From: Margaritispora aquatica
Lineage: Eukaryota > Ascomycota > Leotiomycetes > Helotiales > Discinellaceae
Reading direction: 5' to 3'
Length of the DNA: 64,000 nucleotides
Assembly (NCBI GenBank): GCA_007644065.1
Contig: VJWN01000005.1
Coordinates: 1,426,001-1,490,000 of the forward strand
Positions 6,784-52,980 of this stretch are shown here, in pieces. The notes beneath the pieces are model-generated. The model made no database searches and had not been told where the DNA came from. It worked only from the letters and a program-made list of their open reading frames with translations. Every line of letters starts with the position of its first letter. Within the stretch, counting starts at the first letter, position 1. The position numbers were made by a program, and so were the translations under genes.

Positions 6784-7640
6784 GTTGCTAAGCTTTCGGA
6801 GGTCTGTGTTGGAGACTTCCCCCTGTGACGGCGAGCTCAGAACGATTTATATATCAAAGTCTGCGAGTATATAATCAGAAAACGTGACAGGCGCCATCCT
6901 ACTAGATATGAGTTCTTCAAAGTCCGCCTGGGCAGTGATACAAAAGTCCGCAAAAATTGAGGAGGCAACTCCATTCAATCTCGGAGTTTCTCCCCCTTCT
7001 CGCTGGAGTTTCTACATCCCAGAAGTCTTTCCTAGCCTTACGTGAGGATCTATCATGTACCTGGATGGATACTTTAGCATAGAAATAGACTTTGATAGGA
7101 ACATGATGAAAAGAATTAAAATCTAGGAAACAGAAACAGAATCTAATTCTGAATGTAGGCGTGTAAGGGAGTGTAGATGGGTGCTGGATGGAAGTTTGAA
7201 TTGAGGGCGGTGTATTGCAGCAGAATTACATGCAAGCTTGTGGTTTTGATGTTAACTCTCGAACTTATTACAAAGCTACAGATATATTTAATTTATTAGA
7301 TTCTAAGTAGCTATACTTAACATAATATGTCATGGTTGATCAATTATAGTTCAAAGTGGTACCATAGAGGAAAAGTACAATGTGAGGCATTATAGTCATT
7401 TAAGTAGAGAATAAAGGGCTCGGATTACAAAAGTGGCAAGACGGCTGAAAACCGGAGCGCGAAAGCTGAACACAAAAACGACTGTAATTAGAAATGAACC
7501 TGCCAACGCCAACAACAACGAAAGTTCATCTAATAAACTTGAGCATACAACCAAACCCGTGACACTCCCTTGCCGTAAACTCCATGCCCTGATCGATATA
7601 ATCAACTCTTGATCACGCTTGGAAAATGATTTTGAAGCTC
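6784..7640. other. intergenic region: tannase promoter and NR-PKS 3' region
   Basis: About 860 bp. It holds a TATA-like stretch near 6845, the CGGAGTTTCT element at 6982 and a weaker TGGAGTTTCT copy at about 7004. The right half is AT-rich 3' flank of the PKS gene. No gene is seen. Confidence 0.6.
6982..6991 (+). promoter_or_regulatory. CGGAGTTTCT element upstream of the tannase gene
   Basis: Exact 10-mer about 200 bp from the tannase start codon. One of five exact copies in the cluster. Candidate Zn2Cys6 regulator site. Confidence 0.6.
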
Positions 7641-10600
7641 TCACGACAGAAATCGCACCGCCTTCCATGATTGAACGAACTTCCTTGCAACATCCTCACT
7701 GACTGGCCCCACTGATCTGAGAGTGGCAGAATGCTCTCTACTCTTCGTGGTATCAAGTAGAAGCCCTCCACATGACATCCGAAGGAAATTGGCATCGAGA
7801 AAGTCTATCAGTTTTACAGCTGGGTTATCAGCTTCGACTAGGCCGGCGGAGTTCCGCACAAGCTCAACCCAATTGGGAAATGGGATGCGATTTGCGTCTG
7901 GCACACCAAGCGCTTCTGCTAGCACGGGAATCATCTCACGCCACTGTTGGCGGACAGGATTATCGATGTGGTAGATGGGATATGGATTGTCAACTTGAAG
8001 AAGATCCGAAAGCGTGGCAGCGACGTCGTCCACCGGAGTCCATGACAATAGCCCTTGAAAGTCTGGCAGAGCCTTTAAGGTTTGGGATGACTTCCAGAGA
8101 TAAGAAAGGTGCTCCATAGGGTTCCAGTAGCCACTGCTCTTAGAGCCTGCAATTTGGCCAATACGAACCGAGAATGTGCGGAAGCGATCTGGATGCTTAA
8201 GTAGAGTTTCATCGAGCATCAGCTCGCAGGCATATTTGGCATCACCATATCCATTTGGCAAGACAGATTCTATTGTCATACGCTCTTCGGGAACATTGAT
8301 GTTTTTTGACCACAGAGGATAGTGTCCAACGACGGCAATGGATGAGACGAACTCGAACGTTATCTTCGACCCTCTTGGTCGTTTGGAAGATGCAATACTG
8401 ACCAAGTCAATCATGTTGCGCATAATATGAAACTGAGACTCAAACCCCTTCACCGGTCGTTTCGCACTCATGAGCCACGCATTGTGGATAACATGAGTCA
8501 CCGTTTCGAGCATATAATTGTAGACGTCGTTCGACAAGCCCAACATTGGCTTAGATGCATCAGTTTCAAAGACCTTTAACTTTGCAAGACCCTCTGCAGG
8601 CACGAAAATTCCCTTGGTGATAAGAGCTTGGATTTGCCGCGACCTGGGATCCTGATTACTGCGGCGATTGAGACAGATGATGGTCTTGATATGAGGCAGC
8701 TCCGCGAGATGAGCCACCAAGTGAGATCCTACCGAGCCAGTAGCTCCAGTGAGCAAAACGGTTTGATATTGTGGCTCCGGGATGAAAGCTGTCGTAGGGA
8801 CTGGGCAAATGAACCCCTGAGTTATCTTGCGAATATAATCATCAATAACTGCTTTTCGTGATGCGCAGTCAGTGCTTGGACTTGCCTCAGGTTTTGGGGG
8901 TATTGGTAGACGCTCGTACCTCGATCCGGAGGCCATTGCAATGAAGAACTTTTCCAGTTTGTTCTCAGGACGCGCCCCATCTGTCCAGTCGACATGTCCA
9001 TATCCGACGGATTGAAGCTCTCGCTCCCATCTAGTTTCATTTGTCACAGCATGGACACGACCATCTTCAAACAGCCACCAGCCCTCGAATAAACCAAAGA
9101 TCATATCGCACCAGTACAATGTGCCAGTCATTTCAAGCATTATCAGGAGACCGTCATCTCTTAGAGCTTTGCGGATGTTCGCTCCCGATTTGGTTAAGCT
9201 ATGTGTAGCATGAACTGCATTGCTGGCAATGATAATATGCTGTGTCTTGAGCAAGTCTTCGGCAGGCTCCTTCTCGATGTCGTGCGTTCGGAACTTCATG
9301 AACTTGTACTGTTTGAACAGCTTGCGAGCACTTGCAACAAAAGATGGTGCAAGATCTGTGAAGGTGTATTCGACTGGGACATTTAGACTGTCGAGAAGTG
9401 GGACAAGCCACTTGGTGGTTCCGCCCGTACCAGCGCCCATTTCAAGAATTTTCTATGATCGAGTTAGCGAAATGCGAATTCGACGGTTGAGAATGCTTCA
9501 TAGCTCCCAAGCTCAACATGAACATCAAGTATGGAAGACCGGTCTTGATCAATGAGATCGACTTCCAACTCTGGAACTTGCGCCAGCAAACATAAACTAA
9601 ATTAGAGTCAAGCTTACTAGTGGCCCTTCGTGCATTGATAACTTCGAGACCAGCCGAGTGAGGAACTGTTGCATCTGCTTGTAGAAGACTTTGTTCAATG
9701 GCCAATCCCCGTACAAGCCTGAGACAAGTTTGCGACCCTCCTCAGACCCGAAGATCAATTTGATGCCGTCGGTCTCTCCTTTCAGGACCTTGGCGAGGTT
9801 TACGCCGGCGTAATAAGTCAGATCATTACAACCACGCTCTCCTGGGAATCGGCCATTAAGCTCCTTCACTAAGTCTTTGCTCGATTTCGAGGGTAGTGGG
9901 ACCGCCGTTCGTGCCATGCGACCACTCTTCACTTCAATCAATCGACCTTCTTTCTCTAACATCCCATACAAATATTCCACTAGAACATTGGACATTAGTA
10001 CTCATCTTCTGGTATCTGCAATTCGTGGAGCATTAGTTCAGCGGGTATTTCTTACCAAGTTGTTCATATTCGGGAAGATATTTTATGCGTGAGACCTCCT
10101 CACCAGGTTTTGCGGTTCTAATGGTACACCCAAGTAATTCGAATGTCTCCAGAGTCAACACTATACACATTTCGTTCTGTACCGGAAGGACGGCCTTGAC
10201 ATAATCGCTACATCCGTGATCGGCAATGACCTGGTCTGTGAGCGCCTTCGTTTCTCTGAAAGCTTCCAGGACCTTCGATGGAGGTAGCTTGAGGTCGCCA
10301 GTGGTTGAAGAGGAAGGAGAAATCTTGGCACTGGCTGGAGATGGGTTGGATTCTGCAGATACGCTATGATGCTGTTTTGGTTTCTCCTTGCCAGCTGGAG
10401 TTCTGGTTCCATTGACCATGGAGTCGAGTTGCCCAACAGTCAATTCTTCGATCGCCACATGTTCCGATATCTCAAAGTCGAATTTGGACGAGAAATCTGC
10501 TCGGAGTTCTGTCGATAGCAAGGAGTCAACTCCTAGATCTCGTAGGAGCAAATCCGGCGCCATGTCGCTCTTCTCAATTCCGAGGAACTCTGCAAGATAC

Positions 10601-13600
10601 TCTGTTACGTTTGTCTCGCCAACAGAGCTAAGATTCGTGTCAGAGTCAGAAGGCGTGAAGACGCTGGTCACCTTGGAGGATTCTCGGTCATCCTCGTCAG
10701 AGCTTTCATCTGGGGTTTCCTCTTGAGGCATGCTGCCTGCTGGTAATGCTGCATACACGCACTTCATCAAACCCGGCATATCGGTGATCTCTGTTGAACG
10801 ATATAGTTAGCACATCGTTTTCCATAAGTTTTGTGATGAATTCAGACCGAAGGAAGGAAGGACCGGGTTTCCCCATGACTCTATTGTCTCCTTGAATTGG
10901 TGGATTGCTTTGGGGGGAGTCATATGGCAGAGGTTATTAATGAGGAGAAGTACTTACGAATCAACACATCAGGGTCAAGCGTACACTTGAACTCATTCTC
11001 GATCTCGCGCGACATCTCCATGCCCATTAATGAGTCAATACCCAAGTTGGCTAGCTCACTGTCGTCTCCAATTTCATGAAGCTCAAGACCAGACAGGTCC
11101 GCCAGAATAGCTTTCACCTTTCCTGAAATATCCGATCCCATGGTTGGTTTTTTCTTTTCCTTCTTAATTTTGGAGATCTTTGCTGTTGCTTTCTGGAGAG
11201 AGTTAAATGTTGCAGATGGTAAAATACTTTCGATCTTAGCCGTCATAGCTGCGGTTGATTGAGAGCTATCTGAATTTCCTGCCGAGAGACGGGAAAGCAT
11301 CTTGCTCATGGCAGCTTTGGATACCTTGACATAATTGATGCCTAGTATGACCTCTGTCAATTTTCCGGTGCAGGCATTGAAGATGAATACGTCCGTGAGA
11401 TACGCCTTCTCGAAGGGACCGTGGTGAGAAGCAAAAACGTGCCAAGAATCGGGGCGGGCATCCTCGGATAATCTACCAAATGTCAGCAAACGTCGTTCTA
11501 AGTCGAACGTCTTGGCAATGGCGAATACGTTTAATTCGGGAGATTCATCATCACAAGAAGAGTTTCAAGCTTACCTTGACGAGTCGAGGTTGGGTGAGCG
11601 AACCCACTGCTCGATTCCGTTGGCAATATACATATCAGAGGTAGCTCTGTCCGTCATGCAGTTGACCCAAATGCCGCCCACTTGACAGAAAGCGTCTGAC
11701 AAATGTGCGTCGAGCCATGTTTCGGAATTATATCTCTTCACCACATAGCCAGCAGATTCGTTACCTTTTCCTACCAATCTTTGAAGTCCCTGGTAGTCTT
11801 CGCCATAGTCTACGATCTCGGCAAATGTCTTGTATATGTTGCGCCCCTGAATTATGTCATCTGCATCCACACTTTTGAGCAGCTCTACGCAGCGGTGATG
11901 CCCGATGAGTCGTTCGTACTTAGCGAAATCTCGCTGTACTTGAGCGTCGTCGATGGAGCGAATAATGATCTTACCAGTGGTATGTATAGCTGTTGATGAA
12001 CCCTTGGATCGGGTGCTGATCAGCCGGAAAGCCCAACTTTGGTTTTCAACATCCATTGCTTCTAGCTCGAGCCAGACAGAGCGTGATGGATCAATGCAAA
12101 TAGGAGATTGATTATCCACTCCATGAATCTCTGGCTGCAATCTTGAAGATCCCATATCCGGGCGTAAACTTCGGAGACCTTCGATCGCTAGATCTATCTG
12201 GATGGTCGCCGGACATATTGGTGCGGTTTGAGCGATTTTGTGTCCTGAGATTATTCTTTGATACTTTGGTATCATCGTATTAACGCGGAATCTGGCACAC
12301 CGGTTTAGCTTGTCTTGATAGCCGACGAAGGTCAGTAGACTGTCTGGGAGCTTTTCATCCTCAACTTGTACCGGGACTTCTACCACAGCCTTCGTTACAC
12401 TCTTGAGGTCTATCCAGTGGCGGACTTTCTCGAATTGATATGGTGGTAGAAGCAAGGAAGAGTAGCTGTACGTTTGAGAGTCGTGGTGAGGCCAGAACGA
12501 GATGTTGAGACCAGCCTTCCAGAGACTTAACGTCGCTTCACTTAGACCTGACATGGAGTTATCGCTGATGATGTTGATTGCTTGGAAGTGAGACGTGCTC
12601 TGGCGTCCGAGTGCTCTGTCAGCCATAGCGGTGACAGTTGAGTTAGAGCCTGCTTCGAGCCAGATAGCTGATGGGAACTCCTCGGCGAGTCTGCACGCTG
12701 CTTGATGAAAGTAAACTGGCTGGCGCATGTGCTCAGCTACAAATTTACTGTTGAAATTTTGTCCACTGCGGGAAACAGGAGTCAGCATTCATTAATTCGA
12801 CATCAGTTACAAAACAAATAGAAGATATGACCCTGCTGAGTACAACATTCCTCTTCTATGGCGGTAATCGAAACTTTCAGATTGACTTACTCGGATACGT
12901 GATAGGTGGCCCTAGCAATTGGTATCTGGGCTTCTCCAAAATTCAGTTCTAGAGCTACCCTCTCCAATTCTGGCATCAATGGGTCGACAAGTGCAGAATG
13001 AAACGCGTTTGTAACATTCAGTCGTTTAGTTCTCATCGAGGAAGAGAAGTCCTTGGCGTGAGTCGAAACAGCATCAATCGCCTCGGTCGAACCAGCCAGT
13101 GTAAAACTCCTTGGACCATTGAAACAAGCTATACTTGCTGGAGACAAATTTGGACACGATTGGTTATATTGAGTGATCAATTGCTCTACATCTGCGAGAT
13201 CCTATGGAGCAGAAGATTAGTTTTATTCTGTTGGGGACGCAGAGATAGCAAATGGATTTAGAGATAAGGAACACTTACTGCTTCAACAGCCATCATGGCT
13301 CCCTGATCAGCACCCCACTTGGTTCGAATAATATTGGCACGTCCAATGATCATGTTGAATGTATCTTGGAGTGTCAAAACACCTGACACACAGAGAGCGG
13401 TCAACTCTCCGAACGAGTGTCCCAGCAATGCAACAGGCCGAGCTCCGCAGTCGATCCAGGTTTTTGCACAAGAGTACTGGAATGCAAAGAGCATTGTCTG
13501 TAACTCAACTGCACTTCCAACTGGACTGCGTTGGAAAATCCCTGGGAAGATGCTACCGGCTCCGTTTCCGTGTGCAAGGCAAGCGGCGTTACACGCATCG

Positions 13601-16600
13601 AGATGCTTTCGGAATACTTGTACAGTCTCGTAAATATGGCGATCCAAGCCGACGTAAGTCGAGTTCTGTCCCCCAAAACACATGATAAGTGGCCGTGGTG
13701 CTGGACGTGCAACAGAAGAGAGTGTGCCGTTTTCAAAGTCAGCCAACCTCTCGTCTAAGTCTTGGAAGGAAGAGCAGCTGAACATTAAGCCACGGTCTAA
13801 AACGCGATTTGATTGACGAAATACGTTAAAGGCAATGTTTGGCAAGGAGAGAGTGGATGCTGGCTCGGAGTTCCTCCCTAGGTATCGGCGAAGAGCTGTA
13901 GCGTATGAGCGAAGACTTTTGTCATCGAGCCCAGTTATCCAAAATGGGTACTTGATGCTGGGCGTGGCTGTTGATCCATACTGCGTAATTGTCTTTCTCG
14001 AGTTATTTCCAGAAAACTGCGTCACGACAATTGAAGCATTGGATCCCGATGCTCCATAATTATTAATCAAGGCGGCTCTAAAATCTGCTGTCCACGGCAT
14101 AAGACTCGTTGGGATTCTCATCTTGTCTGCAGGAGTTGCCCCTATTGCCGGATTTATCGTGTCAAAACTTGCCTGAGGGGGAATCGCCGCCATTCGAATC
14201 ATCAACAGGACCTTGATGAGTGAAATAAGTCCACTGGTGCACTCAACATGGCCTACAAGTCCCTTCACTGAGCTCAACATTAAAGGTTCTGGTTTCAGAC
14301 GGTTTGCACCGCCGAGAACTTGTCGTATACTCTCATACTCTGCTGGATCGCCTACAGCTGTCCCAGTTCCATGAGCCTCAACCGCTGTAATTTGGTCAGG
14401 TTTGAGCCTGGCTTGCCGAGTAACAACACGGAAGAGATCAGATAAAGAAGGGGCATTGGGAACGAAAATTGGCGTGCAGTTTTGGTTCTGTTGCACAGCT
14501 GTCCCAGCGATCGTTCCCAGAATCTGGTCGCCGTCCGCAATAGCTAAAGACACTATAAGGCGGAAAAGTCAGCAAACTACTTACTTAGATGTGCCAATAT
14601 GAGACCCTTACTCTTCTTGAGGAAAACGGCAGCCACTCCCTCACCACGACAATATCCATCTGCTTTGATATCGAAGGGCTTGCATGATCCAGTCAAACTA
14701 AGGAAACTTGCGCCTGCCAAGTTCTGATACCACAGCGGATTCGTCATGACGTGCGTACCGCCAGCGAGCGCAGCAGAACACTCCCCGCTGCGAATAGCCT
14801 GGCATGCTTGATGAACTGCAACCGCCGATGAGGAACATGCTGTGTCGATCGTTAATCCTGGCCTACATATCCCACAACAGTCAGCTAATTCTCAAAATGC
14901 GCCAAGACTGAGAATCGTATCATTTTTGGTCCTCATAACCTTATCAGGAGGCACCTCTCCTGGATGACAAAAGCGATCCCAAATGAAATCCTGCAGCTTC
15001 TGGAGATGCTTACCCAGTCCAGCCAAAGTAATGGCTAACTTTGCCGGCGATGAATCCTTTCAAATTGCCTGTTGCAGAAAACGCATTCGGCGCATGGCAA
15101 GCGATGTTATTCTCGTAGTCAACAGCACAAACACCAACATAACATCCAACGCGTCTATCTGCATTTGGTTTATGGAACCATCCTGACTGTTCAACTGCCT
15201 GATAGGCAATTTGCAGAATATGTCGTTGTTGTGGATCCATTGAGGCGACCTCCCGAGGACTTTTCTTGAAGAATTTATGGTCGAACTTGTCGAAGTCGTT
15301 CATGAAATTTCCAAACCATTTCCTCTTCGGATCAGCGTCGCGGAAAGGTGTCTCAAACCCGAAACGCTCTTTGGGAACTTCTTGATGTTGAGACTTTCCT
15401 TCACAGAGTAACTGCCAGAACTCTTCGAGATTATCCGCACCCGCGACCTTGCAGGACATTCCTACCACCGCGATATCGTTATCCGTGTACTGGGGCTCAG
15501 CTTGCAGAAGTTCTGATTCGACATCGGACATTTGAATGACCTGCGAGCTTATTCGACGAATAAGTGATGGAGGAACGCATCTCTCTGGACCAAACGAGAC
15601 CACAAGGGCCCTTTTGTCTTTTAGACTGGATTCCTGAACAGTCAAGAATGTTTTATGCCACTGGGATTGTTCCGTCAAGATAGATCGCAATGCCTCTTGA
15701 TGCAGTGGACCTTGACTTAGGAAGTCTCCGTGGGAATTGGAGCGGGTTGGCATAGTCAGTGCCGATGCATCCGGAAAATTGAAATCCTCATGCGAGGTAC
15801 AGAAGTCTGTGAGTGACTTGAGTAAACTACGGTGTCCATCCCAGTGGAAACGACCTCGCAGTCCAACTTCAGTGGCAATGATCCCGACGGCTCTGAGCTG
15901 GTGCTGCAGCGCCGCAGCATCTTTCGTTGAAGTGGTGACAGTAGCTCGGTACTTATCGTAAGATACAGAAACGTAAGCCTTTTAGATTTTAGGTTAGCAA
16001 AAATTATAAGGCAGGATAAGGAGTGCATAACTTCTTACCTCAGGGAATTTCTTCAATATCTGAGTCACTTCTTCACCAGCCTCATCAGATTGCCAGACAA
16101 CCGCAAGAGATTTGGATGGCCCCACTTCCGACGAAATTTCTTGGGCGTCTACCACCATTCCGATGAGCAAACCTAGTCGCAACGCAACCGCCCCATACTT
16201 CTGAAATTTCTCCTTGCTATTACTGCTAGACACAGCCAGTGCACTCAGAAGACCAGTGCAGAACCCCAGCGTCTCTGTATTTGATTTGGATGATGCATAT
16301 AGATCTTCCCCTCTGTTGGCGGCATCTGGATGCGAAACCTCTAGATATCTGGCGTATTGAACTAACTGCGTAATTATGACAAGTGGTGTGAGAAGTGTAT
16401 TTGGAAGGACGCCGTCGTTTGCCGAAATATCGCCCGTCTTGAGCCAATCATTCAAGTCTTGCAACTGCTTGCGCGTTGTTCCAATGAGCTCAGGAAAGTC
16501 TCTGGAAATGAGATCTAAGCATTGTGTGAATCCCGTAATGGTGTCGAGAATCCATTGATGGTCCTTCGTTGTCAACAGTGCTGTTCTCAGAGCCTGAAAT

Positions 16601-16680
16601 GCGTCTTTGTCAAACGATAGCGCCTGCGGGCCGAACAGTAGTACTGTGTTTCCCCCTGGATGCAAGAGTCGATCTACCAT
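7641..16680 (-). CDS. non-reducing polyketide synthase, SAT-KS-AT-PT-ACP-ACP-CMeT-R
   Basis: Ten exons: 16680-16039, 15978-15014, 14862-14612, 14552-13279, 13201-12891, 12765-11575, 11472-10958, 10790-10056, 9979-9618, 9452-7641. All junctions keep frame and give 2685 residues. Visible sites: SAT Cys141 (GFCTG), KS Cys545 (DTACSSS) with AHGTGT, AT Ser999 (GHSFGE), PT His1323 and Asp1505, ACP Ser1692 (LGIDSLM) and a second ACP Ser1806 (LGVDSLL), CMeT GAGTGG near 2088, reductase TGATGSVG at 2317 and Y2484/K2488. The architecture is that of azaphilone and asperfuranone NR-PKSs: SAT takes a chain from a partner HR-PKS, PT sets the aromatic ring, CMeT adds a methyl and R releases an aldehyde with NADPH. 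The start is the first ATG ahead of the SAT domain. Two CGGAGTTT elements lie 1.2 kb upstream. Confidence 0.95.
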
Positions 16681-17912: not shown

Positions 17913-17920
17913 CGGAGTTT
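17913..17920 (+). promoter_or_regulatory. CGGAGTTT element upstream of the NR-PKS (copy 1)
   Basis: The core 8-mer, followed by TCT. It is paired with a second copy 20 bp away in the same orientation, about 1.2 kb from the PKS start codon. Confidence 0.5.
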
Positions 17921-17932
17921 TCTTTTGGCGGG

Positions 17933-17940
17933 CGGAGTTT
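17933..17940 (+). promoter_or_regulatory. CGGAGTTT element upstream of the NR-PKS (copy 2)
   Basis: Second copy, preceded by GGCGGG. The 20-bp spacing is about two helical turns, so two dimers could bind on one face. Confidence 0.5.
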
Positions 17941-19610: not shown

Positions 19611-21737
19611 TCAGCAAGACACTTTTTGCTTGTAAAAGTAGCCTTTAGCTAGATTATTCACACTCGTTATGTCGTGCAACACTTCGACGATTTCTTGCAC
19701 CTGGACTTCCACAGTTTCAGTCAGGTAGCGATGACTGTTGAAGAAGTCGGCACAGAGAAACAATGGTAGTGGGGTAAATGGATGAACCTAGGTTTGATCA
19801 GCGACGAGTCTAACAGGAGAGCCTTTGTTTGGGTGGTGTGATTTGAGAGAATGACGTACCTTGAAATAACTTAGATGTGCTAATGATCTGGACAGGCGGA
19901 CGATTTCCTGGGCGGCAAGTAATGCTCGCTGCTTGAAGTCGACGATGACATTGCGGTAATCGCTCGTCTCCCACGACATCGACTCCATGACTTTGCACAG
20001 ATACAAGACGGTGGTATGCGCTAGCATGTTAGTGAAGAGCAGCATTGAGCCGGAGTTTTGGGAGGGCGATGAGTAGTTTTGCTGGAGTATCTCCACCCTC
20101 GTCCTCAGCATGGTATCCAGCCACTCATGTCTGTCCCAGAAGTGCTGTGGGATGTTGACGTAAGCGCGTTCCACAAACGTCTGTTGGTGGTGTGCCAGAG
20201 CGCGGCCACAAATGGTGGCTAATATGATGGATTCGGTAAAGGGAGACAGCTTGCTGCTCTGGTCGACAGAGCACATGGCCTCTGATAGGAACGGCATTTC
20301 TACATGCTGTCCCTTTTGAAACTCCTCCTCGGCAATGGGGAGGCGGGTGCATATCTGTTCTGCCCATATCAGCGATGCCATTCGTTCGGCGCGGGGGAAT
20401 ATCCATATGTCCATCCCCGGTCCAACTCACCACCTGTTCGTTTAGCGTCAAAGGGAACTCCCCGCGAATGGAGATGAACCTGTCCAACGAGTATGCCATC
20501 CAAAAAGTCCGCCTCTTGCTTTCGGTTGTGATACACTCGTCAGGGTCGGCCCCGCTCTTCCTCTTGACGACCTGCTCCGGAGTGTCGATCTCGTATATTC
20601 GCATCAATTGCAGCAGACGGAAGCAACGCCCAGCGCTGATATATCCGCGTTGGTAATTTGTCCGCATGAACTCATAGATCAGCAGTAGTATCCTGGCTTG
20701 CACATGCTCGATGTCACTGAACTCGGTAATGTCATCTTTGGGCTCCGATAATTCGAGTAACCTCCGCGTCGTATTATAAAGGCCCTCGCGGACATGGGCT
20801 TCTTGGGCGGAAAGTGAGGCTGCGAGCGTCCACATTGCATATTGCAGACAGATTTGAGACTCGGTTTTGGATGCATTTCGTGACCAACAAAAGTACTGCC
20901 GCTGATGCAGAAACGGGACTGACGGGTAGACTCGTTCGAAATACAGCTGGTCACTTCACACACTGTTAATTGCGGGGACGCACACACATATACACACACC
21001 CCTTTGCGTGCCAGCCAGACGAGCGCCGCAGAAGACCGGATCAGGATGTGAATGAAGACTTACAAATCAGTCCGTAGAATGTCAGATACGTAGAAGTTAC
21101 AGTTATTAAACATGACTGACGACTCAACGGCGGGGGGATCAGCCATCCTGAGATCGGGGCATAGGTCCATTTGCAGTGTGCTGCCCTCGGGGCTCATTGC
21201 TCCTGAGGGTGACTCTGGAAGGGCCGCATGATTCATGTTGAGAAAACAGTCGAGAGTTGGTAGGTCGAGCAGATCCATGCTCATGTTCATATTCATGTTT
21301 GGTACGACTCCGGTATGCTGTCGCTGTTCCAGAAGACGTTTCTCCACCAAAGCTGCATCACCAAAACATTAGTCTACATTGATTAGTCTGTTTGAGATTT
21401 ACCCAGCAAGGGCTTTGACTTTGTTTGTATTTCCCCAGCATTTCCTCCAGTTAGAAAGTAGGTAGGTAGGTAGGTAGGTAGGTAGGTAGGTAATTTTATG
21501 CATACCCAATCTTTGCTGCAACGCCTTCAGATGACCCCGTTTGGGGCCTCTCGGAGAGAGGGTGTTGTCATTCACACAATGGACACCTGCTTCATAACAT
21601 GCTGTACAACTGGGTTGCTTTCTATCGCAACTCAGTTTCCGCCTTCGACACTCTTCACAGGCGGCTCCAGGACGTTGTCGGGACTTCTTCTCCCCTGTCG
21701 CTGTCGTGCTTGATGTCGTGATGGTCGAGTCGGACAT
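19611..21737 (-). CDS. Zn2Cys6 transcription factor, likely pathway regulator
   Basis: Five exons (21737-21506, 21352-21064, 20953-20431, 20354-19860, 19787-19611) give 571 residues. The N-terminal binuclear zinc cluster has the spacing CX2CX6CX6CX2CX6C, within CEECRRRKLSC and the following segment. A linker and a short coiled coil (LKALQQRLALVEKRLLEQ, formed across the first splice junction) follow, as in Gal4-type dimers that read paired CGG triplets. The middle holds the fungal transcription factor homology region (DQLYFERVYP, TKRRTFWMAYSLDR-like). The C-terminus reads VHPFTPLPLF. It sits between the two PKS genes and is the best candidate to bind the CGGAGTTT elements. I saw no such element in its own promoter, so it may be controlled differently. 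The first intron carries a GGTA microsatellite. Confidence 0.9.
21458..21492 (+). repeat. GTAG tetranucleotide microsatellite inside the regulator's first intron
   Basis: About eight tandem GTAG units within the 153-bp intron 21505-21353, just inside the donor site. Length variation here could affect splicing of the regulator transcript. Confidence 0.75.
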
Positions 21738-24750: not shown

Positions 24751-24761
24751 CGGAGTTATAT
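24751..24761 (+). promoter_or_regulatory. CGGAGTTATAT element in the FSH/acyltransferase promoter
   Basis: Identical over 11 bp to the inverted site at 52970-52980, also in a divergent promoter. A variant of the cluster core. Confidence 0.5.
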
Positions 24762-31600: not shown

Positions 31601-34600
31601 GCCGCTTACCACTCCCACCACATGAAGTTCATCGAAGCTCCATACCTTGCTTGGCTGGAGAATCTCATCACTGAAGAGGGCACTCTAGATGAGAATATCA
31701 TCTACTCGTCCCCCACGACTGGAAAGAGAGAGACTTCTGGAAAGCTGATCTCCAGTCCACAGCATTGGGTAACAAGCTTGACGCATCCAGTCCAATTCGT
31801 TGATTCCTTCCGCAACATGTGCTTTGAAGATGCCTCATCTACAGTGTCCAGCGTTGATGTTGTCATTGAAGTTGGTCCCCATGCTGCACTGGGTGGTCCC
31901 ATCCAGGAAATTATCAGTCGACCAGAATTCAAGGGCTGCAAGGTCAAGTACTTCCCCTCTCTCATCAGAAAGAGCAGCGCTGTAGACACAATGCAGGCAT
32001 TGGTCTCTGACTTGATCCGTTCGGGATTTCCAGTCAACATGGAATCCATCAACTTCCCATTCGGGAAACGCGGTGTCTCTGTACTATGCGATCTTCCCCG
32101 CTATCCTTGGAATCACACTATTAGACATTGGTCCGAGCCAAGGATCAACAAGTCTCACAGATTCCGCAAGCATGCTCCCCATGATCTTTTGGGCCACCAC
32201 GTCTTGGGCACCAATATGCTAACACCATCATGGAGACATCTAGTCCGAATTGCAGAGCTCCCAGTAAGTTTCAAGCCAATCTCACATTCCCAATTCTCCC
32301 CATGATATCTCTATGTGTGATGCATTTATAACCAACTTACTTTGACTCTCAAGTGGCTTCGCGATCACGTCGTACAATCCCAGATCCTCTATCCAGGTGC
32401 TGGTTATCTTTGTATGGCTATCGAAGCTGCTCACCAGACAGCCAAGGCCAGCGATAATATTGTCCTCGGATACGAACTCCGTGATATCGACTTTCTACAA
32501 GCACTTGTGGTTCCAGACACTGTAGAGGGAATCGAAGTCCAGATCACTTTCCGTCAAGCTAGTGAAAAGGCCATCTACGCAAAGGGATGGAAAGAGTTCG
32601 TGGTTTATTCAGTAACAACTGATAACCAGTGGATCGAGCACTGCAAAGGTCTTGTCAAAACAAATGTTATCACACAAGTCGGCAATGATGATTCTGCAGC
32701 AGTAGCTGAGGAGCAAGCTCAGTGGAGTCCTCCTGCATCCGCAAAAAACCAGCTTTCCGGACATTCAGAGGCTTCAGAGTACCGCAAATACATCCACCCT
32801 AGGGATGTGTATCAAAGCATGAGCTCGGTAACCATTTGTCATGGACCGATTTTCCAAAATCTCGCAAGCACGAAAGCCCGTGGCAACCAGTCAGTCACCA
32901 CTTTCACAATCGCGGATACAGCAGCCACCATGCCATATCAACACCAACACCCACATGTTATCGACCCAACAACACTCGATTCGCTCTTCCAAGCTGGTTA
33001 CGCCGGATACATTGCGACGCCTGGAATCCCCAAGCTTGCGACACCCCTTGTTCCACGATCGATCAAGAAGTTGTACTTAGCTCACAACATCGTCAGCAAG
33101 GCCGGTGCCGAATTGAAGGCGTTTCTTGATATGAATAAGGCAACCACGCAAGGGTTCGATACTGATATTGTAGTTGTCGATGATGCAATTTCGAGCAGCA
33201 TCCCAGTCCTGAAGATGGAGAATTTCGTTACTCAATCATTGGGTAATGTTCTTGCGCAGACCGATGATTCTTATGAGAATGAAAAATTGGCGACCGTCAA
33301 ATGGGCACCTGATGTTTCACTGGCCAGCTCTGACTACATCAAGAAGCAGCTAGGCGCCACAATCACAACATCCGAGTCTGAGATTATTATGGACTTGAAG
33401 CGTCTAACCATTCATTTTATCAGTGGAGCACTTTCCGACCTGACTGATGAGGACGTCGTCGGAGCAGAATGGTATCATCAAAAGTTTGTAACATGGATGC
33501 GATCCCAGCTTGAGTTGGCACAGCAGAACAAGCTTGCCCATAACAGCTCAGAATGGATCAATGATAGTGCTGAGGAAAGGGCAAAGCTTGTTGAGAAGAC
33601 AAATGCTTCCAGCGTGAACGGAGAGATGGTCTGCCGCCTCGGACCAAAGGTTGTCTCCATGTTGAGAAAAGAGGTGACACCCTTGGAATTGATGCTCGAA
33701 GATAAGCTTCTCTACAGGTACTACGTTGATGCTCTGGGTTGGAACAGATCTAGTCAGCAAGTTGGCAAATTGGTCAAGATGTTTGCCCACAAGAACCCAA
33801 GAGCCAAGATCCTCGAGATCGGTGGAGGAACTGGCGGTACCACCCAATATACTCTCAATGCACTTGGAACATCCAGCACTGGTGGCCCACTTGCAGCTTC
33901 ATACGACTTTACTGATATCTCATCCGGATTCTTCGAGGCTGCACAGCAGAAGTTCGCCGAATGGGAGAGCATTGTCAGATACAAGAAACTAGATATTGAG
34001 CAAGATGTTGTGAAGCAGGGCTTCGAGGCTGGTTCATATGATTTAATCATTGCCTGCCAGGTACTCCACGCAACGAAGAACATGGAACATACCATGACCA
34101 ATGTTCGCAATCTCTTGAAGCCCGGTGGTAAATTGGTCCTCTTTGAGACCACACAAGATCCAACTGATCTATTCTTCACATTTGGTCTGTTACCCGGATG
34201 GTGGCTAAGTGAGGAGGATGAGCGCAAATATGGCCCATCTCTCTCAATCGATATGTGGAATCGCACATTGAAGGCAACTGGCTTCACTGGCGTGGATACC
34301 GAAACACACGACTGCGACAGTGATGCATTGTACTCCTTCAGTGTCATGACCTCAACTGCCAAATCATCTACACCACGAGCTTATGACTCCGATGTCGTTA
34401 TCGTGACTGGCTCGACCGTACCACCACGTCACTGGATCGACCATTTGACAGGCTCTATTGCTAATGTGATCGGAGCTGCCCCAACGGTCGCAAATCTGGA
34501 AACTGTGGATGCCACCGGGAAGATCTGCATCTTCATCGGAGACTTGGAAGGTTCAATCCTCAAAGAGCCCACTCGGGAGCAATTCGAAAACATCAGATGC

Positions 34601-37239
34601 CTAGTTACCAAATCTAAGGGCTTGCTCTGGGCTACAATAGGTGGAGCTGTGAACTGTGAGAACCCACATGCCAGTTTGAGCCAAGGTTTCCTGCGTACTC
34701 TGAGAGTTGAATATGCCGGGAAGAGGTTGATTAATCTCGACCTAGACCCAAAGAAGGAGGCGATGTCCACTCGATCGGTCCAAGCCATCACTTCCGTCTT
34801 CCGAAATATATTCAACTATGGCAAGGACAACATTGTCATGGACTTTGAATTTGCAGACCGCGACGATGTGGTCCAAGTCCCAAGATATTTCCAAGACTCC
34901 CAGAGGAATCAGGTCGTATTCCCCAACTTATCAAAACTAGCAGAGGGAGAGCTCAAGGCATTCAACCAACCAGGCCGCTCCTTGAGATTAACTGTCGGCA
35001 ACCCAGGTCTTCTCGACACCCTTGCATGGAAAGATGATCCTGATGCTGACAAGGACCTCCGAGAGGATATGATTGAGGTGGAGCCAAAGGCCTTTGGTCT
35101 CAATTTCCGTGATATCATGGTCGCCATGGGACAATTGGATGCTGACTATATGGGATTCGAATGCTCCGGCATTGTCAAGCGAGTCGGTCCAGTGGCAGCA
35201 GCTCAAGGCTTTAATGTTGGCGACCGTATCGCAACACTGATGAGAGGTCATTATGGCAGCTTGGTTCGTGTGGAATGGACAAGCGCCATCCACATCCCAG
35301 ACGACATGACATTTGAGACTGCAGCAACACTTCCCATGTCCTTCTCTACAGCCTACTTCGCACTCTTTGAGCTGGGCCGGGTCAAGAAAGGAGAAAGTGT
35401 CTTGATTCATGCAGCTTCTGGAGGTTTAGGCCAAGCAGCAATCGTCTTGGCCAAGCACGTTGGTGCAGAGATCTTCGTTACAATTGGTACAGAGAAGAAG
35501 AGAGAGTTCATCATAAACGAATACAACATCGCGCCCGACCACATTTTCTCCAGCAGAGACGACTCATTCGCAGCCGGCATTATGGCAATGACAAAAAACA
35601 GAGGTGTTGATATTGTACTTAATACTCTTGCTGGTACTCTGCTCCAGGAGAGTTTCAACTGTGTTGCTAGATTTGGACGCTTCGTTGAGATTGGAAAGCG
35701 TGACTTGGAGCAGAACAGTCTGCTTGAGATGGGAGCTTTCGCTCGATCCATCACGATCTCCAGTTTCGATTTGTTGCTCTATGGAGAGTTCAGAGGTCTT
35801 GAAGTCAACCGAGTGATGAAAGACATCATTAATCTTTTCAAGCAAGGCGTCATCGAACCTGTCAAACCAGTCACTGTTTATCCTCTCTCTGAGCTTGAGC
35901 GAGCATACCGGCTCATGCAAGCTGGTAAGCACATTGGAAAGATCATCATCTCTGTCTCAGGAGATGACCTGGTACCGGTAAGATAAACCTCTATTTGTTA
36001 TCTACACGCTTCAGCTTCCTAAACTGACGTCATCTAGATCCTTCCCCAAAGATCTGTTGCCAAATTTCAAGCAGATGCTTCATATCTCATTGTTGGTGGG
36101 GTCGGTGGTATTGGTCGATCCGTTTGCGAGTGGATGATAAGCCGTGGCGCAAAGAACTTGATCGTCCTTTCTCGAGGCGCGAGCCCTGAGAAGATCCGAC
36201 CATTCACGACTGAAATGGCCAAACTTGGATGTAAAGTTAAGGGTGTCGGTTGTGACATTTCGAAGGCGCTGGACCTCGCAATTGCGCTGAACTCTTGTGC
36301 CAGAGATATGCCCCCTATTCGAGGTGTCATTCAAGGTGCCATGGTGCTTCAGGTACATTGCTTTCTGCCCCTTCTGATTCTATCCCATTATATCTTCTCC
36401 TACGGCGGCTGCTAACAAGTATGTAGGATTCTATCATTGAGCAAATGACACTGGAACAGTACAATGCTGCAGTTCGCCCCAAGGTTCATGGAAGCTGGAA
36501 TCTTCACAATCAACTCACAAATTTGGATTTCTTCATCCTCCTCTCCTCCCTGTCAGGTATTGGTGGATTCGCAAGTCAATCTAACTACTCAGCTGGTAAC
36601 ACCTTCGAAGATGCTCTTGCAAGACATCGGGTAGGTAAAGGCCTTCACGGCGCGTCAATCGATATCGGTGTTGTCAAGAGTGTCGGTTACGTCGCAGAGA
36701 ACCGCGGAACAGCAGAAAGACTAAAAAAGTCTGGTTATAAGGAGCTGACTGAAGATGATGTTCTTCAAGCCATTGAGTCGTCTATCGTCTCATCTCCACA
36801 AACGCAGATGTTACTCGGACTCAATGGTGCAGACTGGGAAGAATCGGGATTGGCCAGAGATCAGAGGTTCACAGGATTGACAGCCCGGACATTAGGATCC
36901 GGTTCTACTAGTGTGAGCAAATCTGCCTCGGGTGAGGTTGGTGGGCTCATTGCCGCCGCTGCCACTCTCGAGGAGGCTGCTGCAGTTGTTTTGGACTCGC
37001 TGACGAAGAAACTGATGGACATTTTCATGATTACTGAGGCAGAAGTTGATCCCTCTAAGTCATTGTCAGGTTTCGGTGTCGATTCTCTTGTCGCTGTCGA
37101 ATTGCGAAACATGCTAGCATTGCGTTGCGGTGCTGAAGTCTCAATTTTCGACATCATGCAATCAGCCTCCATCGCAGCACTGTCGGTAACTGTGGCGTCA
37201 AGAAGTAGTCACATCGATCCTTGCTTGGTGCCATCATAA
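28612..37239 (+). CDS. highly reducing polyketide synthase, KS-AT-DH-CMeT-ER-KR-ACP
   Basis: Eleven exons: 28612-28797, 28858-28944, 28994-29051, 29119-29728, 29861-30110, 30166-30964, 31071-31408, 31487-32263, 32354-35977, 36038-36352, 36427-37239. All junctions keep frame and give 2618 residues. Visible sites: KS Cys179 (DTGCSTT) and [13 protein letters not shown] Ser710 (SHSSGE), DH His1040 and Asp1244, CMeT GGGTGG at 1525-1530, ER ASGGLG at about 2056, KR GGVGGIG at about 2263 with Tyr2402, ACP Ser2568 (FGVDSL). All domains keep their key residues, so the enzyme should make a fully reducible, alpha-methylated chain. There is no release domain; the product is expected to pass to the SAT domain of the NR-PKS in this cluster, as in azaphilone and asperfuranone assembly. 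Between KS and AT lies an acidic linker. Confidence 0.95.
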
Positions 37240-38296
37240 ATTCGAACGATGTTCACATATGAGGAAAGTCTTGGGAGATGTCGGATTCTTGGCACAAATT
37301 TGGTGTTTGGTGTTGGCGTTGGCGTTGTCTGATTGGTCTTTGCCATTAGCTTTCCTTATTATGTAATCCGTTGCTTTAGAATGTCCTCGACAAGTAGAAC
37401 TTCAAATGCTACCATTCAAACCATCTTCCTATCTAAACTTTCAATTGCATATAATTATCAATCATTTCGAGAGAAACCCTGATTTCTAAGTTCATGAAGA
37501 CGAACTATCAAGTTATAACCACCAAAATCGGCGGCACAACCTTCACAATTCATGGGAAACAGTGACACAATCCCAAATAAAAGCAAGATATTTCTGCATT
37601 ATTCCAGCGATCATTAATATTCACGAAGATATTCAATCCGTCAAGAAAAGCTTCGCAAGTGGTTATCATGGTTGGTCCTGAAACCTGTGCTGATATGGCG
37701 TGAAAGAAAAGTTCTGGAAAGCTCATCCCAAATCCTAGCCCATCCACTATTCCTCGATAACATGCACGACCTTTCTTGAATCATTTTCATCTATTTAGTA
37801 TAGTGATGCTGCAGCAATAGCGTACCACAATTTTCGAGCGATTCAGTCAGTCCAAGCAGTGCTTTACCTTCTCAACTATACCCTTCATGCATAAACTTGT
37901 CCATTATAACAGATGAGGAATCAGGTCACAGAAACATTTAAATCTCACATGTCGGACTTTATTCTCGGGTCGGAGTTTCTAAAGATCTCGTATCCTTCCT
38001 TTATCTTCTGCTCTTCAGGCTCACTTGAGTACACATACGCGGAAAGTGGGCCATTGAAGATACGAAAGTAGTGTCCAGCGAACCTCTAATCACTATTTTA
38101 TTCCCACATATGACTCGCATATCTCCTGGATGCACTTTCTTAATCTCCACCAAAGTAACTCTTATGGTATGGGCATCATCTCGGTTCCATCATCTGATGA
38201 TCTTGGCTGTGAGTTGATTCTTCTAGGTATCCTTTTGTCAAGCCAAGCTTATTCATATTTATCGCGAGTTTCAAAATCACTTTACAGACATCTGAT
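37240..38296. other. intergenic region: HR-PKS 3' flank and FAD monooxygenase promoter
   Basis: 1.06 kb, no gene seen. It holds one exact cluster element at 37971, about 320 bp before the monooxygenase start. Confidence 0.6.
37971..37980 (+). promoter_or_regulatory. CGGAGTTTCT element upstream of the FAD monooxygenase
   Basis: Exact 10-mer. With its left flank (CTCGGGTCGGAGTTTC) it closely matches the site at 49640 (CTCGGGCGGAGTTTC). Confidence 0.65.
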
Positions 38297-39690
38297 ATGC
38301 CGAGTACCATCGAACCCGAGCAATCCGTGGATGTCGCCATTGTCGGAGGCGGCATCATCGGTCTAGCTCTTGCACTGGGTCTCATCAAGCGTGGGATCAA
38401 TGTGAAGGTTTACGAGCAGGCAACGAGTCTTCGAGAGATTGGTGCTGGTGTCGCATTTACGGCTAATGCCATCCGTTGCATGGCTTTGCTTGACCCGAAT
38501 ATTGTCACCGCGTTGAGATCCGTTGCGACATCGAATGGTGACCCAAACAATCCGAACGACTGGCTGCAATGGGTAGATGGTTACAATCAAGATCCAGTGG
38601 ATCCCTGGAAGGAGGAGCTTCTGTTTAAATTGTACGCTGGAGTCAAAGGTTTCGAAGGATGTCACAGAGCACATTTCTTAGATGCTCTAGTGAAGAGCGT
38701 ACCGGAAGGTGTGGTCCAGTTCCAGAAGCGTCTCGACACCTTGTCGGAGGATGGTAGTGATGAAAAAGTTGTTCTTAAATTCTTCGACGGGACAATGGCC
38801 GAAGCCGATGCTGGTATGTTTTAACATCCAAAAATACACGAGTACGCCACTAACAAAGTGATTATGTAGTCATTGGTTGTGACGGAATCAAATCACGTGT
38901 GAGACAGATTCTCCTTGGGAAGGGTAATCTCGCCTCGTATCCTCATTATAGCCACAAAGTAGCTTATCGAGGCCTTATACCTATGGAAGCAGCAGTCAAG
39001 GCTTTAGGAGAATATAAGGCCAAGAATCAGCACATGCACATCGGACCCAAGGCACACGTGCTTCACTTCCCAGTCGCAGGACAAACTCTGGTCAACTTCG
39101 TTGCCTTTGACACCGATCTCAACGAGTGGAACGACAATGAGAAGATGGTAGCACCAGCTACGCGGCAAGAGGTGGAGAAAGTCTTTGCCAACTGGGGACC
39201 AACAGTACGTACTGTTGTCAGTTTGTTACCAGATCATCTCGACAAGTGGGCCATCTTCGACAGCTTCGACCATCCAGCGCCGTACTACAGCCGCGGGCGG
39301 ATCTGCATCGCAGGAGATGCTGCACACGCAGCGGCACCCCATCACGGCGCCGGTGCGGGAATCGGTATTGAGGACGCCCTCTGTCTCGCTACGCTCATGG
39401 AGAAGGTCATGATCTCGTTCCAGGAAAAGCGTGTGAGTAAAGCTCGCGCTTTGAGCTCGGCATTCGACACTTTCAATTCCATCAGACATGAGCGAAGCCA
39501 GTGGCTGGTCAATAGCAGTCGTGGTATCTGTGAGGTGTATGAATGGGCGGACCCGAAGACGGGCGACGATCCCGAGAAGTGCTTCCAGGAGATCGAGTGG
39601 CGATCGCATAAGATCTGGTATTTCGATTATGAAGGCATGTTGAAGGATGCGAGTGCTGCTTTCGAGCAGAGACTTCAGAGTGTCTCATGA
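38297..39690 (+). CDS. FAD-dependent monooxygenase, salicylate hydroxylase-like (AzaH/AfoD/PigN class)
   Basis: Two exons (38297-38813, 38870-39690) give 445 residues. FAD-binding motifs are intact: GGGIIG at residues 17-22, the DG motif in [10 protein letters not shown], and the GD motif in [17 protein letters not shown]. This is a group A flavoprotein monooxygenase that uses NAD(P)H and O2. Its relatives in azaphilone clusters hydroxylate and dearomatise the NR-PKS benzaldehyde so that the pyran ring closes, the step that defines azaphilones. It follows the HR-PKS directly. No membrane anchor or signal peptide is seen. This is the strongest single enzyme clue that the product is an azaphilone or an asperfuranone-like compound. 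Confidence 0.93.
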
Positions 39691-40455: not shown

Positions 40456-40463
40456 AAACTCCG
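40456..40463 (-). promoter_or_regulatory. CGGAGTTT element (inverted) upstream of the FAD oxidase, distal
   Basis: Reads AAACTCCG on the plus strand, about 264 bp from the start codon. Confidence 0.5.
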
Positions 40464-45985: not shown

Positions 45986-45995
45986 CGGAGTTTCT
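45986..45995 (+). promoter_or_regulatory. CGGAGTTTCT element between the MFS pump and the 2OG oxygenase
   Basis: Exact 10-mer, 364 bp from the pump start and 512 bp from the oxygenase start. One site could serve both genes. Confidence 0.6.
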
Positions 45996-46506: not shown

Positions 46507-47792
46507 ATGAGTTGGATCTCCCACCTCCTTTGTTGTTGGAGCAGGAGAATTCGAGATGGAGCTCCCAACCCGGGAGTGGAAGCTCCTAAGACGATAGAAA
46601 GTCCCAAGTCGACGGGATCGATAGAGACGCCGACAGTGAAGGTAGAAGTAGAAGATGATGCGAAAACCATCCCAACAATCGACATCAACCCGTGGATAGT
46701 GAACTCGTCGGCTACCTCTCGAGATGCGGTCGTGGAGCAGATTCGCGATGCGTGCGTTACCTATGGATTCTTCTCGCTCGTCGGTCACGGCATTCCTCTG
46801 AAGCTGCAAGAACGAGTCTTCCAATGCGCCGAGACCTTCTTCGCCTTACCCGTGGAGGAGAAAATGGAAGTGTCGATAAAGAAATCGCTCGGATTGAGCA
46901 ATCGAGGATACGAGACCATCCAAGGACAGACATTACAGACAGGCATGCTTCCGGATCTGAAAGAGGTGAGTTTTCATTTTCATGTCCCCTCCCGGCGAGA
47001 GAAAACATCATCACTGGCAACATGGCAATCACAAGAAAAAAACACCCAAAAATCAAGCCTTTCTTTCTAATAAGATCCACACAGGGATTCTTCATCGGCG
47101 CCGAAGTCCCACGGGATGACCCACGAGCAGGAAAGTTCCTGACGGGACCGAATCAATGGCCGTCATCTCTACCACCAGAGGAATTCGAGAAACCGCTGCA
47201 AGAGTATCGCAACCGGATGGTACTGCTCGCTGAGGCGGTGCTGAAAATCCTCGCCGCGGGACTTCCAGAACATCTCAGTTCGCCGCACGTCTTCGACGAG
47301 TTTACCATCCAACCATCTGGAAACCTGCGGCTGCTGCATTATCCGCCGCAGACGAGCACGGACAAGAAACAACTCGGAGGTGTGTTGACTCTTTCTTCAA
47401 CTCCAATTGACATTCCTTCGTGCTGACAGTCGTGCTTTCTAGCGGGCGCCCACACCGACTTTGGCGGCATAACCTTCCTGCTCCAACAACCCGGGACCTC
47501 AGGACTCCAAGTCTTCTACCCCCCGACCTCAGAATGGATACCCGTCCCGGTGAGAGAGGACTCGTTCGTCATCAACATCGGCGACCTATTGCAGATGTGG
47601 ACCGGTAACTACTATCGCAGCGCCGTGCATCGTGTCATCAACACGGGAACCAAGCATCGATATAGCGCGCCCTTCTTCTATAATGGAAATCTGAATCTCA
47701 AGTTTACGCCGTTGAATGGTGAGGGTCCTGAGACGACAGCCGAGGAGCATATTAGGGGCAAGTTCTTAGCGAGTCATAGACAGTCGAAGTGA
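46507..47792 (+). CDS. 2-oxoglutarate/Fe(II)-dependent dioxygenase
   Basis: Three exons (46507-46965, 47085-47379, 47443-47792) give 367 residues, normal for the isopenicillin N synthase-like family. The N-terminal block (KTIPTIDINPWIV, then GFFSLVGHGIP) and the catalytic C-terminal domain are both present. Iron ligands are His255 and Asp257 (AHTDFGG) and His314 (SAVHRV); Arg324 with Ser326 (RYS) should hold 2-oxoglutarate. It can hydroxylate, desaturate or close rings. This enzyme class is not part of the usual azaphilone set known to me, so it may add a step that makes the product different. The first 55 residues are poorly defined, and a downstream start is possible. Confidence 0.92.
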
Positions 47793-49276: not shown

Positions 49277-50038
49277 TTTGATCGTGTTGATCTTTTGGAG
49301 GTTAGTTGGGGAAAAGGCTGTCGATCAGGAGGAATCGTGGTTATGGTTATTTGAAGGAGGAAGAAGGGAAGAGGACGAATGTTTGGTATTATATGTTGTA
49401 CATACAGTATCTGATTCGATTCAAAAGGGGGTTAATGATGACCTTGGCGCATTCAGTTGCGGTTCGTCTTTGGCCCGTACATATATATACAAGGTTCGAT
49501 GCCTACAGTATATTACCCGCAAATTCCAACATTCCACGCGTTCGTCACTACAGTAGTACTCTAAGTTTAAGTGAGTGGCAGCGCAGATGATTTAAGACGA
49601 TACATCGCATTCGCTTAGAAATCCTTCCTAAGACTCGGGCGGAGTTTCATCCGCCCTCTGTCTTCGAAAGTTAGTCCGGCTGGGTGATACTGTATCAATC
49701 ACTGTGCGGGCTCAACTAGGTCGATCGCTTGGCTTTCGCACTCGGTTTTTCACCAATGAATTAGGTGCTACGATAATATTAACAATTGAGGCTGAAATTC
49801 GACAGCACACAATCGCCATAAGTCACGTGATGAAAGCAATATGTATGGAATTTATGTTGGTCGATCAGTTTGGCGATTTATACGGACCGTAAATTCTGCT
49901 GACATGAAACCCAGGTGAATGTTCTGATGTACAAGCTTGTTTGTTTGAATTCACACATAACAGCTTTGTTGTGCGAACGTGAATAAATTCCATTCTCATA
50001 CTAACTCACCATCGCTAGGCTGGCCATTCTACGCCAAT
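49277..50038. other. RTA1-like gene promoter and SDR 3' flank
   Basis: About 760 bp, no gene seen. It holds the palindrome-embedded cluster element at 49637-49656. Confidence 0.55.
49637..49656 (+). promoter_or_regulatory. CGGAGTTTC element inside a GGGCGGA...TCCGCCC inverted repeat
   Basis: The core starts at 49640. Two perfect 7-bp arms with a 6-bp gap give CGG and CCG triplets in inverted order, the layout of a Zn2Cys6 dimer site. It lies about 360 bp upstream of the RTA1-like gene. Confidence 0.6.
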
Positions 50039-51264: not shown

Positions 51265-51659
51265 AATGCAAGTAGGAGCTATAGCATTGAAACACTATGA
51301 TTGAAGAGATGCCTATGGCTTTTGTCGAATGTTGCCAGTTACTTATTTCCCTGTGACATGTGTGACTCGCATGTATGAGCTTCAGCTTACCTAAACGTCG
51401 GAGTTTCTTGACGGACTTGCGTTGAATCTGAGAATCTATGCTGACAACCTATAGATAAGCACAAGCTCGAAATTGAATTACACGTATTGATTCTTCTTCC
51501 CCATGACCTCCTTCGCGTGTGATTATGTCATACGTTTCTACGTCCTTATTGCTATATGATTTATTGTGAGTGCTGTTTCAGCTGTTTCAGCTGCACCAGT
51601 TTGAGATTCATCCCCGATCCTCTGTAAAAAAAAAAAATAATAATAATAATAATAAAAAA
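51265..51659. other. SDR promoter region
   Basis: About 395 bp with the cluster element at 51399 and an A-rich AAT tract near 51627-51660. No gene. Confidence 0.55.
51399..51408 (+). promoter_or_regulatory. CGGAGTTTCT element upstream of the classical SDR
   Basis: Exact 10-mer, 135 bp from the SDR start codon, the closest of all copies. Confidence 0.65.
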
Positions 51660-52737: not shown

Positions 52738-52969
52738 GGTACACGTGAATTGGTAATGCGAGAAAGGAGTAAGGTAGGAACACAGTAAATTATGATGTAT
52801 AAGGTGCAAGCTTCAAATTAAAACAAACGTAAGCTGGAAGAGGGTCAAACGATGTGTCGCTTCGTTGGATGATTCTCTCCTTTGATGTAAAGTCTGTAAA
52901 GTCTAAAGAAATGCTATTTAAGACATGTCCTTTGTCGTATTTGGCGCAAGGAGGGACCCCGGCGGGGTG

Positions 52970-52980
52970 ATATAACTCCG
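52970..52980 (-). promoter_or_regulatory. CGGAGTTATAT element (inverted) between the SDR pair
   Basis: Reads ATATAACTCCG on the plus strand; the same 11-mer as at 24751. About 230 bp from one start and 310 bp from the other. Confidence 0.5.

Follow-up and report, generated by a model that had tools for sequence, protein, structure and literature searches.

A CGGAGTT(T) word shared by the promoters of a polyketide gene cluster in Margaritispora aquatica, probably a zinc-cluster operator

Described zinc-cluster sites and the word at this locus

Zinc-cluster proteins recognise CGG. We analysed a 64-kb window of Margaritispora aquatica DNA (contig VJWN01000005.1, positions 1,426,001 to 1,490,000; "the window" is this whole stretch, part of a 42.36-Mb fungal genome) that holds a polyketide gene cluster with its own Zn2Cys6 regulator. 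The word CGGAGTT(T) is found before nearly every cluster gene. We consider it probable that this word, together with the weaker form CGGACTT, makes up a local regulon operator and is read by the Zn2Cys6 regulator encoded at 19611-21737. Such operators are well known from other cluster-specific zinc-cluster regulators, and this one is an ordinary, well-supported example.

The terrein cluster of Aspergillus terreus offers one comparison. Its regulator, TerR, acts as monomers on single CGG half-sites and on CGG direct repeats (PMC4360782). As described there, the TerR system shares with ours a Zn2Cys6 regulator in a polyketide cluster and a motif derived from intergenic regions, and it too has promoters that lack the motif, three in the terrein cluster. 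TerR recognises TCGGHHWYHCGGH, whose spacer is fixed at 5 bp (PMC4360782), whereas our cluster carries CGGAGTT(T) and same-strand pairs at variable distances, 13-24 bp start to start. We rejected a TerR-type operator on account of these pair distances and because CGGA is followed by a G, which does not fit HHWYH.

Two yeast sites resemble the word itself. According to a review (PMC12719309), Gsm1 and Rds2 bind CCGGAGTTA in the FBP1 promoter, a short asymmetric word that contains CGGAGTT and is read by zinc-cluster proteins. Among the matches listed for literature on CGGAGTT and zinc-cluster terms, this was the one with CGGAGTT; those listed for a text match to the 8-mer CGGAGTTT included no fungal regulator by title. 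Gsm1 and Rds2 are, however, described as gluconeogenesis regulators (PMC12719309), and the copies in our cluster mostly end in T (10/12), not A. In fission yeast, Pho7 has the in silico consensus TCG(G/C)AxTTTxAA, which contains CGGAxTTT, and two sites of one promoter are bound independently (PMC5559640). Pho7 is a phosphate-starvation regulator rather than a cluster regulator (PMC5559640), and its trailing AA is not seen here. By sequence, the nearest relatives of our regulator among the matches listed are CtnA/CtnR (citrinin) and AfoA (asperfuranone), for which the available text of PMC8406171 and PMC8395729 states no recognised DNA word.

Occurrence of the word in the cluster promoters

An exact-match search of the window found every motif position cited in a preliminary description of this DNA in place. 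The 10-mer CGGAGTTTCT occurs five times, always on the plus strand (Table 1). CGGAGTTT occurs 11 times: in these five copies, in CGGAGTTTCA, in the tandem pair before the non-reducing polyketide synthase (NR-PKS) gene, twice on the minus strand before the flavin adenine dinucleotide (FAD) oxidase gene and once at 20051. The preliminary description had listed all of these except the last. It had placed sites before the tannase, NR-PKS, highly reducing polyketide synthase (HR-PKS), FAD monooxygenase, FAD oxidase, MFS/2-oxoglutarate (2OG) oxygenase, RTA1-like and SDR genes, and our gene models agree. Its statement that the motif is absent from 1-5 kb and after 54.4 kb holds for CGGAGTTT but not for CGGAGTT, which has a copy at 56436. 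Shuffling the window gave expectations of 0.14 for CGGAGTTTCT and 1.77 for CGGAGTTT. The whole genome contains 930 copies of CGGAGTTT, 3353 of CGGAGTT and 74 of CGGAGTTTCT, so that 1.39, 5.04 and 0.10 copies, respectively, would be expected per 64 kb, compared to the 11, 20 and 5 seen.

The earlier argument, that five exact 10-mers are too many, is weak by itself. The window contains 5 of the 79 genome copies of GTCCATGACA and 5 of the 74 of CGGAGTTTCT, an equal enrichment, and the count of a single 10-mer chosen post hoc therefore says little. Apart from simple repeats, GTCCATGACA and CTCGAGAAAG (187 copies in the genome) also have five dispersed copies in the window; four of the five GTCCATGACA copies are within coding models. 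Because the count was weak alone, we made gene models of the window by hand and performed a blind word test on the 11 intergenic regions that precede cluster genes (13,229 bp in all). Words were ranked by the number of regions holding them and scored as minus log10 P. Simulated controls were second-order Markov chains generated region by region (60 sets for lengths 7, 8, and 9; 40 sets for length 10), and genomic controls were 100 draws for each of lengths 7, 8, and 9, in which non-coding-like pieces matched in length to the regions were taken from 200 kb of this genome. Non-coding-like DNA was set by a mechanical open-frame mask, identical for window and controls. Four window intergenic regions (one upstream of a HET-domain gene, two convergent and one right of 54.4 kb) were set aside.

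CGGAGTT ranked first among the 7-mers, occurring in 10/11 regions against 0.97 expected (score 10.1). The first 8-mer was CGGAGTTT (8/11 regions, 0.32 expected), the first 9-mer CGGAGTTTC (6/11) and the first 10-mer CGGAGTTTCT (5/11), with top scores of 10.1 to 10.7 over the four lengths. The best score of any simulated word was 4.7, 5.6, 6.9, and 7.4 for lengths 7 to 10, and the best genomic-control score was 5.3, 7.4, and 6.4 for lengths 7 to 9. With 10 of 11 regions reached, CGGAGTT describes the motif better than the full 10-mer. CGGACTT came second among the 7-mers, in 6/11 regions with a score of 4.3 (simulated 95% point, 3.9).

It could be argued that scanning 64 kb will always yield some over-represented 10-mer, and the enrichment of the mostly coding GTCCATGACA speaks for this. 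That our word is a selection effect of this kind is nevertheless very improbable, since the blind tests correct for word choice: 0/60 simulated and 0/100 control sets reached the observed 7-mer score, the same was true of 8-mers, and the Bonferroni-corrected P for CGGAGTTT is ~3e-8.

The signal is convincing because of its location in the cluster intergenic regions, not because of copy number. In these 13.2 kb, CGGAGTTT occurs 10 times compared to 0.29 expected from the genome rate (~35-fold), and in the remaining 50.8 kb once compared to 1.10; this comparison rests on rates, the first 100 of the 930 genome places having been listed. CGGAGTT occurs 12 times in the cluster regions (1.04 expected) and eight times elsewhere in the window (4.00 expected), a mild excess. 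In masked non-coding-like DNA, we found 10 copies of CGGAGTTT in 22.3 kb of the window and 2 in 82.7 kb of control (Fisher P 8e-6); eight flanking 10-kb pieces, which form part of the control, have 2 copies in total. The preliminary description had said that the motif would be refuted if random promoters of this genome carried it just as densely; in this sample they did not. CGGAGTT was not found in the four set-aside regions, which are uninformative at 4.5 kb in total. As expected for a cluster-specific Zn2Cys6 regulon, most cluster promoters share a CGG-containing word above background, and the cluster carries this word at a higher density than the genome as a whole.

Arrangement of the sites and the proposed reader

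In the 12 CGGAGTT copies of the cluster regions, the next base is T in ten and A in two, followed most commonly by C or T, and no fixed base precedes CGG. The consensus of CreA, which mediates carbon repression, is SYGGRG, which CGGAG matches when C or G stands before it. Since C or G precedes only 5/12 promoter copies, we rejected CreA sites; CreA also has no requirement for TT after CGGAG, and we regard this explanation as hardly credible.

Site orientation is independent of gene direction. The sites of the tannase, FSH1 hydrolase, monooxygenase, FAD oxidase, MFS, RTA1-like, SDR1, SDR2, and SDR3-like genes lie ~135-364 bp from the ATG, and those of the 2OG oxygenase and acyltransferase genes, both in shared divergent regions, lie 0.5-0.6 kb away. 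Only one of the 11 cluster regions lacks CGGA(G/C)TT: the region upstream of the regulator itself (21738-23640).

Four same-strand CGGA(G/C)TT pairs are spaced 13, 18, 20, and 24 bp start to start. When 19 sites were placed at random, at least four same-strand pairs arose in 0/20000 trials. No opposite-strand CGGA(G/C)TT pair occurs at 11-27 bp. Inverted pairs with a gap of up to 30 bp were also absent from the window. On these results, from a search that did not extend to bare CGG triplets as second half-sites, we rejected a CGG dimer site of the classic type, whether inverted or everted. The pattern CGGASTTTNCGGASTTT had 0 matches anywhere in the genome.

The pair pattern has 39 matches in the genome, four of which are in the window. 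Since ~15 of the 39 fall, by eye, in two repeat families, the copies might have arisen through promoter duplication or from a dispersed repeat. We rejected this origin because similarity among the 12 promoter copies hardly extends past 7-8 bases and the weak C/T that follows, and because 0/4 window pairs belong, by eye, to those families; its probability is remote. We also observed a dispersed genome element (~11 copies by eye) in which CGGACTT and CGGAGTT flank a ATTAATTAT-like core (e.g., C1:2077827, C7:52185, and C46:1565246). Within the window, GATGGTTGATG-like units form a short tandem array (45899-45980) directly before the site at 45986.

The proposed reader matches Pfam PF00172 (Zn_clus) and PF04082 (Fungal_trans), both above cut-off, and, as in other cluster-specific Zn2Cys6 regulons, is encoded within the cluster. 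A zinc-cluster motif pattern scan of the window and 40 kb on each side (144 kb) matched this regulator alone. Together with the two domains, this supports the earlier suggestion that the CGG start fits the regulator. It has 475 database relatives, the best of the 120 listed being from Phlyctema vagabunda (55% identity); Glonium stellatum is another species with one of the closest relatives. Some of those listed are named CtnR or afoA, and these align with 40-57% identity. Across 10 aligned sequences, neither the cysteines of the zinc cluster nor the basic stretch RRRK varies. Our hand-spliced model is 567 amino acids long and is probably three residues short where exons 2 and 3 join, since relatives carry a three-residue insert there and the DNA permits a slightly earlier acceptor; this doubt leaves the zinc cluster untouched. 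The N-terminal part matched PDB entry 6e33, which we take to be Pho7, only at E = 0.91. A paralogous cluster sharing the word was rejected, as there is no CGGAGTTT in the 10 kb around each of the two nearest regulator paralogues in the genome; these 20 kb contain 3 CGGAGTT and 2 CGGACTT.

We propose that the regulator reads CGGAGTT(T) as an asymmetric CGG half-site in either orientation, probably as one protein per site; some promoters offer another site close by on the same strand. Binding would turn on the polyketide synthase, tailoring and transport genes jointly. The regulator gene, with no such word upstream, may be driven from outside rather than by its own product.

Several points weigh against this proposal. 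The word is linked to the regulator solely through neighbourhood and class, and other zinc-cluster proteins (Gsm1 and Rds2) read a nearly identical word. The sites of both polyketide synthase genes lie ~1.2 kb upstream of the ATG. In the tannase region, one site has an everted opposite-strand neighbour at 38 bp (6944/6982). The word form CGGACTT and the distance range of the pair test were chosen after the pairs had been seen, and the 39 genome-wide matches to the pair pattern compare to 38 for a reversed control; the pattern is therefore no general genome feature. CGGACTT alone does not exceed the highest simulated score and so, on its own, is suggestive only. Finally, the gene models are hand-made.

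As the Gsm1/Rds2 site shows, recognition of this word by a different zinc-cluster protein is possible in principle. The word would then be a real cluster cis-element read by a protein encoded elsewhere, such as one related to AcuK/AcuM (Gsm1/Rds2) or to Pho7; the cluster's own regulator would act upstream of that protein or at a different site. We consider this unlikely. Gsm1 and Rds2 do bind CCGGAGTTA (PMC12719309), Pho7 reads CGGAxTTT (PMC5559640), 22 of the 27 stretches that match the regulator are located elsewhere in the genome, and the word is missing upstream of the regulator itself. However, a wide-domain regulator would be expected to have dense sites elsewhere, and 5 of the 74 genome copies of CGGAGTTTCT are in the window, whereas the densest other place has, by eye, 3 in ~60 kb. 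The cluster also holds its own regulator of the right class.

If the cluster regulator is the reader, the cluster may comprise the genes from ~5.1 to 54.4 kb, and the tannase, RTA1-like and SDR genes could be assigned to the pathway through shared control. The word would also provide a concrete predicted operator for a regulator clade with no site stated in the available text of PMC8406171 and PMC8395729. A broader possibility, which we consider less likely than not, is that CtnR/AfoA-clade regulators as a group read asymmetric CGGA(G/C)TTT as monomers, with flexible same-strand tandems and with their own genes outside the loop. A single word would then serve to predict regulator targets in clusters of the citrinin, azaphilone, asperfuranone, and tropolone types.

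Cluster enzymes and other features

Table 1. Motif copies, regulator and principal enzyme genes, in window coordinates
Feature	Position	Strand	Context
CGGAGTTTCT	6982..6991	+	~199 bp upstream of tannase ATG (6783, -)
CGGACTT same-strand pair	6920 and 6944	-	tannase region; 24 bp apart
NR-PKS	7641..16680	-	SAT, KS, AT, ACPs, methyltransferase, NAD_binding_4 reductive release
Tandem pair of CGGAGTTT	17913..17940 (17913, 17933; 20 bp apart)	+	~1.23-1.25 kb upstream of NR-PKS ATG (16680, -)
Zn2Cys6 + Fungal_trans regulator, CtnR/AfoA-like	19611..21737	-	proposed binder; 5 exons, hand-spliced
CGGAGTTT	20051..20058	+	inside regulator coding sequence; taken as chance copy; not in preliminary description
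CGGAGTT(A)	24751..24757	+	between divergent FSH1 hydrolase (ATG 24540, -) and acyltransferase (ATG 25368, +)
CGGACTT	25109	+	same FSH1 hydrolase/acyltransferase divergent region
CGGAGTTTCT	27435..27444	+	~1.18 kb upstream of HR-PKS ATG (28612)
HR-PKS	28612..37239	+	KS, AT, DH, MT, ER-type dehydrogenase, KR, ACP
Tandem pair CGGACTTT (37953) and CGGAGTTTCT (37971)	37953..37980	+	18 bp apart; ~326 bp upstream of FAD monooxygenase ATG (38297)
FAD monooxygenase	38297..39690	+	nearest solved structure TropB, then AfoD
Two CGGAGTTT	40456-40463, 40537-40544	-	~270 and ~190 bp, respectively, upstream of FAD oxidase ATG (40727)
CGGAGTTTCT	45986..45995	+	between divergent MFS (ATG 45622, -) and 2OG oxygenase (ATG 46507, +)
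CGGACTTT	46180	+	MFS/2OG oxygenase divergent region
2OG oxygenase	46507..47789	+	nearest solved structures SpoC and TropC (ring expansion)
CGGAGTTTCA	49640..49649	+	364 bp upstream of RTA1-like gene (ATG 49276, -)
Tandem pair CGGAGTTTCT (51399) and CGGACTT (51412)	51399..51418	+	13 bp apart; 135 bp upstream of SDR1 (ATG 51264, -)
CGGAGTT(A)	52974..52980	-	between divergent SDR2 (ATG 52737, -) and SDR3-like gene (ATG 53294, +)

By sequence similarity only, the cluster combines an NR-PKS with reductive release, a TropB-like and a TropC-like enzyme, as tropolone-type clusters do. With the SpoC/TropC-like oxygenase and the HR-PKS, this enzyme set suggests a tropolone-type pathway with an extra reducing polyketide synthase. 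HR-PKS, FSH1 hydrolase and acyltransferase genes are a combination found in azaphilone clusters. The enzyme set for fungal tropolone formation described in PMC8403587 matches the NR-PKS, monooxygenase and 2OG oxygenase here. Like the Hypoxylaceae and dba tropolone clusters of that source, ours has an NR-PKS, an FAD monooxygenase, a 2OG oxygenase, a regulator, a transporter and an FAD oxidoreductase; unlike them, it adds the HR-PKS, FSH1 hydrolase, acyltransferase, tannase, RTA1-like and three SDR or SDR-like genes (PMC8403587).

The last three genes are consecutive (50206-54409), and the divergent SDR2 and SDR3 look alike by eye. Pfam supported SDR1, supported SDR2 weakly, below cut-off, and did not support SDR3. 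A HET-domain gene (1580-3496) occupies the left edge of the window, beyond the stretch that carries the motif.

TTGGCG was a second motif candidate, occurring in 10/11 cluster regions with a score of 4.7 (at most 3.2 in simulations) and at 1.29 per kb compared to 0.44 per kb in control non-coding DNA (3x). It may be a second shared element, for example near 17920, and also occurs upstream of the regulator. GCATTCGCTTA, another candidate, is absent from control non-coding DNA and occurs in three cluster regions (18365, 49607, and 53039); the shorter CTCGCTTA tops some control draws as well and seems common in the genome.

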